A stretch of DNA of 33,964 nucleotides from Oscillibacter sp. (GTDB taxonomy: Bacteria; Bacillota; Clostridia; Oscillospirales; Oscillospiraceae), in the NCBI GenBank assembly GCA_014799915.1, contig JAAVHD010000054.1, forward strand, positions 10,837-44,800. Direction: 5' to 3'. How positions within the stretch are numbered: position 1 is the first letter of the stretch; each line of letters opens with the position of its first letter. Positions 7,554-33,941 of the stretch are shown in pieces. The notes under the pieces were generated by a model that had not been told where the DNA came from, searched no databases, and worked only from the letters and a program-made list of their open reading frames with translations. The position numbers were made by a program, and so were the translations under genes.

Positions 7554-7583
7554 GGAGGTAGTCCTTTCTGCCCCTGCCGGGGC

Positions 7584-8065
7584 TAACTTTTCGCGCGCGC
7601 GAAAAGTTACAAAAGAGCGCTTAGGAAACTACGTTTCCTAAGAACCTTCCTGAATTACGGGGGATATTATTTACGCTACGACGTAGCTGGTTTGGTTCTA
7701 CCGTGGTGCCTACCCACATGCTCGGTGCTTACTTCTACCCCTTTGTTCTAACGAAGATACAGCATGATCCGCTTCTATTCCTACTACCTGGCCACCGCCA
7801 GGAGGACAAATCTATTTCCCCGCACCCCGGGGAGCTCCCCTCGCGTGATACGGTAGGGACCAAGTCAACATCCTGAAATAGACGCTAAGCAGGTGAAACC
7901 ACACCCGCAGTCCGGTAGACCGGACGGACTACAGGATCAGCGCAAAAACAATTACCCCCGTAATAAATAAGGGATTCTTAAACCGTAGGTTTAAGCACGC
8001 TTTTGCCTACTTTTCCCGTGGGGGAAAAGTAGGCCCGGGGTCCGGGGGCGGGTAGCTCCCGGGCT
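7584..8065. repeat. Large palindrome-capped intergenic element, copy 1
   Basis: A 482-bp non-coding element that recurs at 33439-33941. Layout: outer palindrome 7584-7609 (a perfect 26-bp palindrome), inner palindrome 7620-7642 (10-bp stem, loop TAC), conserved core 7671-7966, inner palindrome 7977-7995 (CTTAAACC-gta-GGTTTAAG), outer palindrome 8005-8034 (13-bp stem) and a GC-rich tail to 8065. The left and right ends are inverted copies of one unit (inner palindrome, GC-rich spacer, CTTTTG, outer palindrome). It fills the gap between pyrI and the GNAT gene, and I find no credible ORF in it. A mobile, MITE-like element carrying a structured RNA is one reading; the family is unknown to me. Confidence 0.85.
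7671..7966. ncRNA. Conserved core of the repeat element, candidate structured RNA (copy 1)
   Basis: The 296-bp core shares long invariant blocks with copy 2: TTACGCTACGACGTA at its start, GGTTTGGTTCTACCG (7689-7703), ACATGCTCGGTGC (7716-7728), a 25-base identical run at 7822-7846 containing GGGGAGCTCCCC, and AGGATCAGCGCAAAAA (7933-7948). Between these blocks the sequence varies, but some stems persist: CCTGGC-cacc-GCCAGG here against CTTGGC-cacc-GCCAGG in copy 2, and TTTGTT/AACGAA here against CCGTT/AACGG. This looks like RNA-level constraint. The transcribed strand is unresolved: these two stems favour plus, whereas the GTCCGGT stem near 7910-7923 would favour minus. Confidence 0.5.
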
Positions 8066-10421: not shown

Positions 10422-10503
10422 GTAGGGGCCGATGTCCTCATCGGCCCGTTTCTAACGGGACAGCCAGGGGAGCGAACGGGCCGATGGGGACATCGGCCCC
10501 TAC
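10422..10503. repeat. GTAGGGGC inverted repeat, copy A
   Basis: A 29-base arm (10422-10450) and its inverted partner (10475-10503) pair with a single mismatch around a 24-base centre. Each arm also contains its own palindrome (CCGATG-tcct-CATCGG). The ends GTAGGGGC/GCCCCTAC and the inner CTAACGG are shared with copy B at 11093-11174, so both belong to one family of small palindromic, MITE-like repeats. Confidence 0.88.
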
Positions 10504-10509
10504 GAGTAA

Positions 10510-10731
10510 TCAACGGTTCACCTCCGGGTTATCCGTCCGGCCCAGCAGGTAATCGGTGGATACACCGAAAAAGTCTGCCAGAATCATGAGGTTGCGCACT
10601 TCGGGATAATGTTTTCCCGCTTCATATACAGATATTGAATCTCTTTTGACTCCGATAATTTTTCCCAACGCTTCCTGCGTCATGCCCCGTTCACAGCGCA
10701 ATGCTTTGATTCTTTCTGAAAAATCTGCCAT
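10510..10731 (-). CDS. XRE-family transcriptional regulator
   Basis: A 73-residue single-domain repressor-like protein. The helix-turn-helix spans about residues 17-40 (MTQEALGKIIGVKRDSISVY), followed by a short C-terminal tail (STDYLLGRTDNP) typical of small phage-like XRE regulators. The ATG at 10731 is chosen because GGAGG lies 5 bases upstream; an earlier in-frame ATG (10755) lacks a site. It is transcribed divergently from the small gene at 10818, and two matching palindromes occupy the shared promoter, so it very likely represses that promoter and possibly its own. The pair is flanked by GTAGGGGC repeats and interrupts the pyrimidine genes. Confidence 0.9.
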   Translation of the reverse strand: MADFSERIKALRCERGMTQEALGKIIGVKRDSISVYEAGKHYPEVRNLMILADFFGVSTDYLLGRTDNPEVNR

Positions 10732-10748
10732 GATGCCTCCAACCCCTC

Positions 10749-10777
10749 TTGACATCGCGAATTAAATTCGCTACAAT
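10749..10777 (+). promoter_or_regulatory. Near-consensus promoter for the small gene at 10818
   Basis: TTGACA (10749-10754) and TACAAT (10772-10777) are separated by exactly 17 bases, which predicts a start near 10784. The palindrome GCGAATT-A-AATTCGC fills most of the spacer, so a bound repressor would block RNA polymerase. Confidence 0.85.
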
Positions 10778-10817: not shown

Positions 10818-11066
10818 ATGAACCAACTTATGGAAACCCTGTTTTCAGCCCTTGGACCTTCCCAGCAATCGGAAGCAGAAGCGCAGGCTGTCAAAGCCGC
10901 TAAGGAAGCGGTTCAAACAGCGGAACAGCGCCTGACCCATCAGGAATTTGATCAGCTGTGGAATGCTGTTATGGACATCGGAAATGCCAGCCTGCAGGAC
11001 AGCTTTACCCTAGGTTTTCGTCTTGGCGTCCAGCTGACGTTGGAGGGCCTGCGGCCGGTATCCTGA
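10818..11066 (+). CDS. Small helical protein, DUF6809-like
   Basis: An 82-residue, Ala/Gln/Glu-rich protein. Residues about 17-45 look like an amphipathic helix, and the C-terminal SFTLGFRLGVQLTLEGL resembles the GFKLGVLL-type ending of the DUF6809 family, as far as I can recall it. No membrane segment or catalytic motif is seen, and the function is unknown. The ATG at 10818 follows AGGAG by 10 bases; the frame is open further upstream but that stretch holds the promoter. Transcription comes from the strong, operator-covered promoter shared with the divergent XRE gene, so this is its likely regulatory target. Confidence 0.8.
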   Translation: MNQLMETLFSALGPSQQSEAEAQAVKAAKEAVQTAEQRLTHQEFDQLWNAVMDIGNASLQDSFTLGFRLGVQLTLEGLRPVS

Positions 11067-11092
11067 TGGATTTTTCGATTACCACCAATCCG

Positions 11093-11174
11093 TGTAGGGG
11101 CGCACAGTGTGCGCCCGTTCTAACGGCACGCACAGCAGTCCTTGAGAAGTGGGCGCACACTGTGCGCCCCTACA
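11093..11174. repeat. GTAGGGGC inverted repeat, copy B
   Basis: A perfect 24-bp inverted repeat (11093-11116 against 11151-11174) with ends TGTAGGGGC/GCCCCTACA. Each arm contains the palindrome GCGCACA/TGTGCGC. The centre begins GTTCTAACGG, as in copy A (10422-10503). The internal palindrome differs completely from copy A yet still pairs. Confidence 0.88.
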
Positions 11175-31259: not shown

Positions 31260-31277
31260 CTATGATACGATCTCTCT

Positions 31278-31359
31278 TTTATTCATCCAGTTTCAAAACC
31301 GCCATAAATGCCTCCGTCGGCAACTGTACGGTGCCCAAATTCCGCATCTTCTTCTTGCC
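31278..31359 (-). pseudogene. Displaced duplicate of the 3' end of lepA
   Basis: 82 bp nearly identical to 31522-31603, the last 26 codons of lepA plus its stop codon, in the same orientation and offset by 244 bases. Only three bases differ; on the minus strand they fall at third codon positions and leave Lys, Thr and Arg unchanged. The copy has no usable start (an in-frame TGA lies just upstream), so it is a gene fragment. It keeps the proper distance to the terminator at 31221-31259, suggesting that this is the ancestral tail and that new sequence was inserted between it and lepA. Confidence 0.88.
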
Positions 31360-31521
31360 CGCCCCATAAAATCATTGATTTTATGGGGACCTCCTTTATT
31401 TTGAAATGCTCGGGCGGAGTGAATCCGCCCTCCGCCAAGGTTTTGCTTCGCAAAACGCTTGTACGCCGCTTCCGCGGCGGCTCGCTTGCGCTCGCGGAAG
31501 GCAAGAAGATGCTCCTTCTCC
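31360..31521. other. Palindrome-rich spacer between the two lepA tails
   Basis: This 162-bp stretch holds four stems: CCCCATAAAAT-cattg-ATTTTATGGGG (31362-31388), GGGCGGA-gtgaa-TCCGCCC (31412-31430), GTTTTGC-ttc-GCAAAAC (31440-31456) and GCCGC-ttcc-GCGGC (31465-31478). A textbook AAAGGAGGT lies on the minus strand at 31397-31389, but no convincing gene follows it. Together with the second lepA tail it forms a 244-bp insertion-like unit. Confidence 0.7.
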
Positions 31522-31522
31522 T

Positions 31523-33325
31523 TTATTCATCCAGCTTCAAAACCGCCATAAATGCCTCTGTCGGCAACTGTACGGTGCCCAAATTTCGCATCTTCTTCTT
31601 GCCTTCCTTCTGCTTCTCCAGCAGCTTCTTCTTCCGGGTGATATCGCCGCCGTAGCACTTGGCAAGGACGTCCTTGCGCATGGCCTTCACCGTCTCACGG
31701 GCAATGATCCGTCCGCCAATGGCCGCTTGGATAGGCACCTCAAAGAGCTGGCGGGGGATGTTTTCCTTCAGCTTCTCACACAGCCGCCGGGCGCGGGGGT
31801 ACGCCTTGTCCCGGTGGGCAATGAAGCTGAGGGCGTCCACCTGATCCCCGTTGAGCAGCAGGTCCACCTTCACCAGATCGCTCTCCCGGTAGTCGGAAAG
31901 CTCGTAATCCAGGGAGGCGTAGCCCTTGGTGTGGGCCTTCAGCGTATCGAAGAAGTCGTAGATGATCTCGTTGAGCGGCATCTGATAATGCAGTTCAACC
32001 AGATGGGTGTCCAGATACTGCATATCCTTGAACTCGCCCCGGCGGTCCTGGCACAGGGGCATGATGTTGCCCACGTACTCGTTGGGGGAGATGATGGAGA
32101 CCTTGACATAAGGCTCCTCCGAGGAGGTGATGACGCTGGGATCAGGGTAGTTGTGGGGGTTGTCCACGTTGACCACCGTGCCGTCGGTCTTGGTGACCTT
32201 GTAGATAACGGAGGGCAGGGTGGTGATCAGATCAAGATCAAACTCCCGCTCCAGACGCTCCTGGATGACCTCCATGTGGAGCATCCCCAAAAATCCGCAC
32301 CGGAAGCCAAAACCCAGGGCCACCGAGCTCTCCGGCTCGAAGGTCAGGGAGGCGTCGTTGAGCTGCAATTTCTCCAGCGCGTCCCGCAGATCGGGATACT
32401 TACTGCCGTCCTCGGTGTAAACGCCGCAGTAGACCATAGACTGGGCCTTCCGGTAGCCGGGCAGGGGCTCGCTGGCGGGGTTTTCCTGACCAGTGATGGT
32501 GTCGCCCACCTCGGTGTCCCGGACGTTTTTGATGGAGGCGGTGATATAGCCCACCTGGCCTGCCTGGAGCTGGTCGCAGGGCTCGTAGCCCAGAGGACGA
32601 AGAAGACCGCACTCCAGCACCTGATACTGGGCCCCGGAGGCCATCATTCTGATAGGCATACCCTTTTTTACGGTGCCATCCACGATCCGGAAGTAGACGA
32701 TCACGCCCTTATAGGCGTCGTAGTAGCTGTCGAAGATCAGCGCCCGCAGGGGAGCGTTGGGGTCGCCCTCGGGGGCGGGGATGTTCTGCACCACGTCCTC
32801 CAGTACGGCGGGGATATTGATGCCGACTTTCGCAGAGATCTCCGGCGCATCCAGCGCCGGAATGCCAATAATATCCTCGATCTCGTGCTTGACCCGCTCC
32901 GGGTCGGCGGCGGGGAGGTCGATCTTGTTGATGACGGGGCGGATCTCCAGATCATTGTCCAGGGCCAGGTAGGTGTTGGCCAGAGTCTGGGCCTCGATGC
33001 CCTGACTGGCGTCCACCACCAGGACAGCGCCCTCGCAGGCCGCCAAGGAGCGGCTGACCTCGTAGTTGAAGTCCACATGGCCCGGGGTGTCAATGAGATT
33101 AAGGGTGTAAGTTTCCCCATCCTGAGCTTCATAGCTCAGGGTGACTGCCCGTGCCTTGATAGTAATGCCTCTTTCTCTCTCCAGGTCCATGTTGTCGAGG
33201 AGCTGGCTCTCCATCTCACGCTCGGAGACGGCTCCGCAGACCTCTAACAGACGGTCGGCAAGTGTGGACTTGCCGTGGTCAATGTGGGCGATAATCGAAA
33301 AATTTCTGATTTTCTTCTGATCCAT
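31523..33325 (-). CDS. lepA: Elongation factor 4 (LepA), ribosome back-translocase
   Basis: A 600-residue translational GTPase of full family length, acting on stalled or mistranslocated ribosomes. G domain: P-loop AHIDHGKST at 13-21, DTPGH at 79-83, NKID at 133-136. EF-G-like domains follow, and the LepA-specific C-terminal domain ends in [18 protein letters not shown]. The ATG is preceded by AAAGAGGTAAG. Its last 82 bp are duplicated at 31278-31359, and the leader upstream carries two GC-rich hairpins next to the ribosome-binding site. No partner such as hemW lies in the window; the usual lepA-hemW pairing is not seen downstream. Confidence 0.97.
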
Positions 33326-33391: not shown

Positions 33392-33438
33392 GGTCGATTT
33401 TTCTTTATTATAGATTCGCGCCTCGCCGGCGCGGGGGC

Positions 33439-33941
33439 CTTCTTTTCCCTTGTGGGAAAAGAAGCAAAAGCACCCTCAAGGGGGCTCCGCCACCCTTGAG
33501 AATCCCCTAATGTATTTGTCTAGTTACGCTACGACGTAACGGGTTTGGTTCTACCGGGGGGCTTACCTACATGCTCGGTGCCTTGCATCTACCCGTTCGC
33601 CCTAACGGAGCCAGCAGCAAAATCTGTTTCTACTCCTACTACTTGGCCACCGCCAGGAGTACCATCTATTTCCTAGCACCCCGGGGAGCTCCCCTCGCGT
33701 AATACGGTAGGGACTAAGATAACATCCTAAAATAGCACCACCGCAGCAGAAACCGCTAAAAATCCGATTTAGACCGGACGGACTAGAGGATCAGCGCAAA
33801 AAACAATTACTCCCGTAATAAGGTGTCGCCGCCAGGCGATGCCCGAGGGAGTCTTGAACCGTAGGTTCAAGCGCGTTTTTGCCTTCTTTTGTCGCGCGAC
33901 AAAAGAAGGCGCGGAGTCCGGGGCCGCGTAGGTCCCGGGCT
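33439..33941. repeat. Large palindrome-capped intergenic element, copy 2
   Basis: A 503-bp second copy of the element at 7584-8065, same orientation. Outer palindrome 33439-33464 (11-bp stem), inner palindrome 33475-33500 (8 bp), core 33524-33821, inner palindrome 33853-33871 (CTTGAACC-gta-GGTTCAAG), outer palindrome 33881-33910 (a perfect 30-bp palindrome), then a tail related to copy 1 and ending CCCGGGCT. An extra hairpin TCGCC-gcca-GGCGA (33825-33838) is absent from copy 1. It lies upstream of lepA; nothing protein-coding is visible from here to the window end. Confidence 0.85.
33524..33821. ncRNA. Conserved core of the repeat element, candidate structured RNA (copy 2)
   Basis: The 298-bp counterpart of 7671-7966. 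Invariant blocks include GGTTTGGTTCTACCG (33542-33556), ACATGCTCGGTGC (33569-33581) and a 25-base run at 33676-33700 followed, after one change, by ATACGGTAGGGAC (33702-33714). The start forms GTTACG-ctacga-CGTAAC here, where copy 1 has TTACG/CGTAG. Length is kept within two bases of copy 1 although intervening sequence differs, as expected for a folded RNA. The transcribed strand is not settled. Confidence 0.5.

Follow-up and report, generated by a model that had tools for sequence, protein, structure and literature searches.

Candidate triple-helix pseudoknots at the paired, outward-facing ends of a dispersed element in Oscillibacter and other Clostridia

The window analysed here, a stretch of 33,964 nucleotides from an Oscillibacter sp. 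contig (JAAVHD010000054.1), holds two copies of a repeat, at 7579-8063 (copy 1) and 33434-33941 (copy 2), and both were found to be members of an element of ~450-500 bp composed of two outward-facing arms. Copy 2, which sits upstream of lepA (31523-33325, minus strand), consists of two arms that face outward and are joined in the middle, without a gene inside. Arms are ~240 nt long and include a ~180-nt core, and the end module reads outward as GGGATTC, an inner hairpin (H4), a linker, a pyrimidine spacer and an outer hairpin (H3). A covariance model built from 28 modules matched exactly four ends in the window, all strongly (7579-7649 and 33434-33507 on the minus strand, 7970-8037 and 33846-33913 on the plus strand; E 4e-17 to 4e-12). 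RNAalifold on the whole arm returned H4 and H3 only, and the ~180-nt arm core showed no convincing local helix in a mixed alignment. The window also encodes an XRE-type HTH gene (MADFSERIK.., 10510-10755, minus strand) and, divergent from it, a DUF6809-family gene (10818-11066, plus strand), which are of the same kind and family as genes enclosed by some copies of the element elsewhere and lack flanking end modules here. This pair is flanked by GTAG-footed, REP-like inverted pairs (GTAGGGGCCGATG.., GTAGGGGCGCACA..) at 10422-10503 and 11091-11173, and such pairs are also nested centrally in several element copies of the same genome.

The left end of copy 2, on the minus strand, comprises H3 at 33439-33464 (outward CTTCTTTTCCC(ACAA)GGGAAAAGAAG), a third-strand spacer at 33465-33470 (outward CTTTTG, its first C matching the C of the stem), a linker at 33471-33474 (outward GGTG, with partial pairing only to the loop ACAA) and H4 at 33475-33500 (CTCAAGGG..CCCTTGAG). 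Its right end, on the plus strand, comprises H4 at 33853-33871 (CTTGAACC GTA GGTTCAAG), the linker CGCG at 33872-33875, predicted to pair with GCG of the H3 loop as a pseudoknot, a third-strand spacer at 33876-33881 (TTTTT plus a bridging G) and H3 at 33881-33910 (GCCTTCTTTTGTC(GCGC)GACAAAAGAAGGC), and beyond these lies a distal G+C-rich stem, H2, at 33916-33941 (GTCCGGGGC..GTCCCGGGC), which is present in most copies. In copy 1, the left end (7584-7642, minus strand) is divided into H3 at 7584-7609, spacer at 7610-7615, linker at 7616-7619 and H4 at 7620-7642. The inner part of its right end (7977-8004, plus strand) consists of H4 at 7977-7995, the linker CACG at 7996-7999 and the spacer CTTTT at 8000-8004, and the outer part (8005-8034, plus strand) is H3 with the loop GTGG.

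An earlier note on this DNA had described the ends of both copies as double palindromes whose stems change sequence yet keep pairing, and every stem that it quoted was found: the right inner stems CTTAAACC/GGTTTAAG and CTTGAACC/GGTTCAAG, the right outer stems CCTACTTTT/AAAAGTAGG and CCTTCTTTT/AAAAGAAGG, and the differing left outer stems TAACTTTT.. and CTTCTTTT... Its view of the left end as the inverted form of the right was borne out, the left arm being recognisable as an inverted, diverged counterpart of the right one (profile E about 1e-16). The spacer CTTTTG that it gave for every end is present, read outward, at three of the window ends, but the right end of copy 2 has TTTTTG, and this difference is meaningful. 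The compensatory change in the stems is real, with 99.0% of cells paired across 28 distinct modules compared to 35-54% when slid by 1-3 columns, although the percentage is somewhat flattered because the ends in this set were found partly via their stems. Both-side changes occurred in 15 of 22 pairs, and 123 cells had changed on both sides in the 28 modules, against 31.5 in shuffles. The earlier observation is right but incomplete, as the decisive covariation is found outside the stems, in the loop-linker pairing and the spacer, and the tests of these two features are free of the stem-selection bias.

The four nucleotides of the H3 loop complement those of the linker, which separates H4 from the spacer, and loop and linker co-vary. 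Among 241 ends, which were chosen by stem and invariant T tracts and not by loop-linker pairing, Watson-Crick pairs were found at the three loop-linker positions in 228, 234 and 225 ends, with GC, CG, AT and TA all used. When the 42 distinct linker/loop combinations were considered, 111 of 126 cells paired, compared to 73.4 (SD 3.8, maximum 89) in 5000 shuffles. Pairing reached 88% at one offset and ≤38% at any other, and both-side changes were seen in all three pseudoknot pairs.

The pyrimidine spacer in turn mirrors the pyrimidine arm of the H3 stem, as CTTTTG or TTTTTG in the window and as TCTCTTT, TTCTTT or CCTTT elsewhere. With respect to the stem base above the CTTTT tract, a first spacer base C occurred with C in 75/75 cases, and a T occurred with G or T in 166/166. 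No other pair of columns had mutual information as strong as this one (normalised 1.00 over 125 distinct modules), and the match was tracked within 13 linker/loop backgrounds that held both states. In other genera the mirror pairs are TCTCTTT with TTTCTCT, TTCTTT with TTTCTT and CCTTT with TTTCC, and 195 of 197 pyrimidine cells agreed in register versus 69-78% off register. Across further families of the order and class, in modules chosen without the third strand, all 93 of 93 pyrimidine cells agreed; most of these are T over T, and it is the C positions that carry information. The spacer thus matches the H3 pairs in parallel register, with C over C-G, T over T-A and mostly T over G-C, and both the parallel orientation and this code correspond to a triple helix of the pyrimidine motif. 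An antiparallel arrangement was set aside, since the first spacer base would then not depend on that stem base.

Based upon the loop-linker covariation and the parallel third-strand match, the module is very probably an H-type pseudoknot with a major-groove triple helix, a reading drawn from comparison of sequences. Selection on single-strand structure, as the earlier note proposed, is strongly supported. Its other suggestion, that one arm is copied from the other, may account for the stems, but not for the loop-linker pairing or the third-strand covariation. The same applies to template switching, in which quasi-palindrome correction would keep the stems without any structural selection. Almost perfect stems with few wobble intermediates would suit such a process, yet it cannot yield loop-linker complementarity or a parallel third-strand match, both of which were tested independently of the stems; it is already contradicted by the third-strand covariation and we consider it highly improbable.

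Triple-helix pseudoknots are known from a small number of RNAs, such as telomerase RNA, some riboswitches and stability elements, and telomerase RNA contains an H-type pseudoknot with a U-rich major-groove triple helix. The module resembles telomerase RNA in its strand order, in a pyrimidine third strand parallel to the purine arm and in the U.A-U and C+.G-C code, but differs in occurring as many repeats per bacterial genome, at the ends of a small element, with no telomerase and no Rfam family match. Rfam scans of the window and further loci found no family at gathering score, and the matches below threshold were to unrelated hairpin families only. One of these, Clostridiales-2 (RF02937), covered one end module (L100); it was set aside, as it scored far under the family cut-off and had no match in the Oscillibacter genome of the window. 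In G450 its match lies inside the arm, beside the module, and the printed consensus is without a pyrimidine third strand. A literature search, the scope of which left outside a 2017 survey of 224 RNA motifs, found no description of the structure or the element.

With the covariance model, the module was detected in all but one of the 25 genus genomes (24 of 25), and copy number ranged from 0 (G021, the one genome without it) to at least 150 ends, reached in three genomes. Wider samples, which overlap, were positive in 54 of 201 genomes at family level, 37 of 295 at order level and 20 of 391 at class level, the search being less sensitive with more than 40 genomes. Named matches were Oscillibacter and related gut genomes. 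No module was found in 83 kb of shuffled sequence, an unfiltered two-hairpin scan was too noisy for use, phage and plasmid collections gave no match, and a strict pattern was matched by one viral contig out of 2.9 million. The genome from which the window comes contains dozens of copies (62 matching pieces, many of them at contig ends), and many contigs of this draft (G000) terminate within element copies; the assembly often breaks at the repeat, which thus restricts assembly from short reads, and the copy counts are minimal. The ends faced outward in 127 of 127 adjacent pairs, and in other genera inverted outward pairs 420-490 bp apart recur, with 24 of 32 close pairs outward. The sequence of the element itself is species-specific.

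Our study also examined whether copies come and go. Empty sites in relatives, for which the earlier note had suggested a test, do exist: the response-regulator/kinase junction measures ≤114 bp in most of the genus and holds the element in G008, G018 and G006 (gaps of 567-708 bp), as it does in the genome of the window, in which the contig ends on the kinase side. At occupied orthologous sites, orientation was kept in 15 of 16 comparisons over five loci. Together, these observations indicate that some places hold old, inherited copies and others none; target-site duplications are not readable at the divergence of the species compared. Decayed copies are rare, as 398 kb of loci contained ~92 intact ends and a handful of weak ones, where each locus was chosen for one intact end and partner ends were not so chosen. 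A selfish repeat should leave more such remnants, so this rarity suggests selection on each copy or rapid exchange between copies.

These data bear on whether the element is a host-selected chromosomal repeat of the REP/BIME type, serving as a protein-binding site or mRNA stabiliser and kept by purifying selection at each site together with homogenisation by recombination, its mobility being ancient or absent. The near absence of decayed copies, the conserved orientation at orthologous junctions and the chromosomal location favour such a repeat, and the element shares with REP/BIME sequences an intergenic position, inverted pairs of palindromic units and high copy number. However, most relatives lack the element at the response-regulator/kinase junction, its sequence is species-specific and the number of ends varies widely within one genus. 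Unlike REP/BIME sequences, it has two hairpins joined by a pseudoknot and third strand, arms of ~240 nt and no tie to Y1 transposases, and we regard this origin as improbable. The GTAG-type REP pairs that adjoin and lie within elements are a separate family, and a GTAG-type foot was absent beside the element hairpins in the sequences examined.

The Y1 connection was addressed directly, as the earlier note had pointed to a Y1/TnpA-REP transposase. PF01797 was found in only 5 of 25 genus genomes and does not track the module. Hairpins at both ends and the single Y1 gene in the genome of the window would fit transposition by an IS200/IS605 or TnpA-REP enzyme, but PF01797 is missing from the heavy carriers G012, G018, G009 and G015, and from G006, and is present in the sole module-free genome (these being incomplete drafts), and the element has inverted ends instead of an asymmetric pair on a single strand. 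No Y1 gene was found inside the element, or as a full-length partner, in the elements examined, and Y1 transposition is scarcely credible as an explanation. The element does have traits of bacterial MITEs, being ~0.5 kb, gene-less and of high copy number, with inverted ends, nested insertions and larger gene-bearing relatives. Unlike MITEs, it shows no simple terminal inverted repeat, and its gene-bearing version carries XRE and DUF6809 genes instead of a transposase; a partner transposase with the same ends was not found. A dispersed element with cis-acting ends is likely.

The gene-bearing versions were approached through 40 DUF6809 loci in the genus, of which 14 are bracketed by two end modules and 11 have a module on one side only. 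The 14 two-sided elements measure 974-1207 bp and all have DUF6809 inside, with an XRE gene recognised in 13 of them, always divergent from DUF6809. In these ~1 kb versions, the stop codons lie ~170-375 bp from the outer end of their own module, so that each arm occupies the position of a 3' UTR for one gene, with the folding outward strand as the sense strand. The gene-bearing versions are a minority, and gene-less copies have the length of two arms alone. None of the elements examined contained a recognisable transposase, and the gene-bearing versions found carry XRE and DUF6809 only. A comparison of the predicted DUF6809 structure (pLDDT 77, pTM 0.44) gave nothing informative.

We somewhat favour an explanation in which the triple-helix module works as RNA at the ends of a dispersed element. 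Two outward modules bound a gene-less chromosomal element of ~450-500 bp. Each module may function in single-stranded RNA, on the 3' side of transcripts that run outward, and there it could cap or stabilise these transcripts or provide a handle for a protein. The gene-less copies would be arms without genes, spread or homogenised in trans, and copies that fold poorly would be lost if both ends must remain foldable. Several observations count against this. There are almost no G-U intermediates, and G-T mismatches in H4 are no commoner than A-C, so wobble pairing gives no positive sign of RNA and does not favour RNA over DNA. Gene-less copies are placed without preference as to how the adjacent genes run (17 tandem, 10 divergent and 9 convergent, with a background of 124:65:54 from rough ORF calls). 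Of 20 carrier genomes outside the genus, 8 gave no detectable DUF6809, 15 of the 40 genus loci are without end modules, and loop and linker match only in part at the left end of copy 2. Whether the module acts as RNA rather than single-stranded DNA is, in our judgement, evenly balanced.

The alternative in single-stranded DNA dispenses with RNA and takes each module for the transferred strand of a transposable element, folded at both of its ends with the 3' side outward and recognised by a putative recombinase. It draws upon several of the same data. The constant inverted pairing of ends, the dominance of gene-less copies with intact ends, the empty sites in relatives, the equal rarity of G-T and A-C mismatches and the indifference to gene direction are all consistent with it. 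However, the failure to recognise a transposase, the lack of phage or plasmid matches and the persistence of orthologous copies in the same orientation argue against it, as do C+.G-C triples, which are unfavourable in DNA at neutral pH, and we consider it unlikely. The most far-reaching reading would be a class of dispersed element in Clostridia that has escaped description, in which every end is a telomerase-like triple-helix pseudoknot needed for spread or for transcripts and a fuller version carries the two-gene XRE/DUF6809 unit, moving without a known transposase; this could equally prove right or wrong. Some single bacterial genomes contain at least 150 candidate triple-helix pseudoknots as ends of an unannotated element spanning several families of a common gut class. 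Natural variation gives a near-complete third-strand pairing code, which makes fold and function directly testable, and DUF6809, a protein of unknown function, is a candidate for the protein accompanying the module.

Further repeats were also observed. In the window, an 87-bp repeat of the lepA end (31273-31359 and 31517-31603, 95% identical) flanks a 157-bp insert with palindromes, and this has the appearance of an insertion accompanied by a long duplication. A small palindromic repeat (..GGTCATGAAGAAT / ATTCTGCACGGCC..) is inserted within element copies at L005, L006 and L101, and in L005 it lies inside the CAAAAG spacer. A solo long hairpin family (AAAGTTCYTTTTGSTTACTTTTTCTTTCAAGAAAAAG..) at L011:160-189, L146, L206 and L240 has the look of a YTTTTG-hairpin without the loop-linker match. 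Finally, an element in another family (L449:490-970, G756) contains an AT-rich insert with internal inverted repeats of ~29 bp (GAGCGCTGAGCTAACAGTGTTGTAGAGAA).
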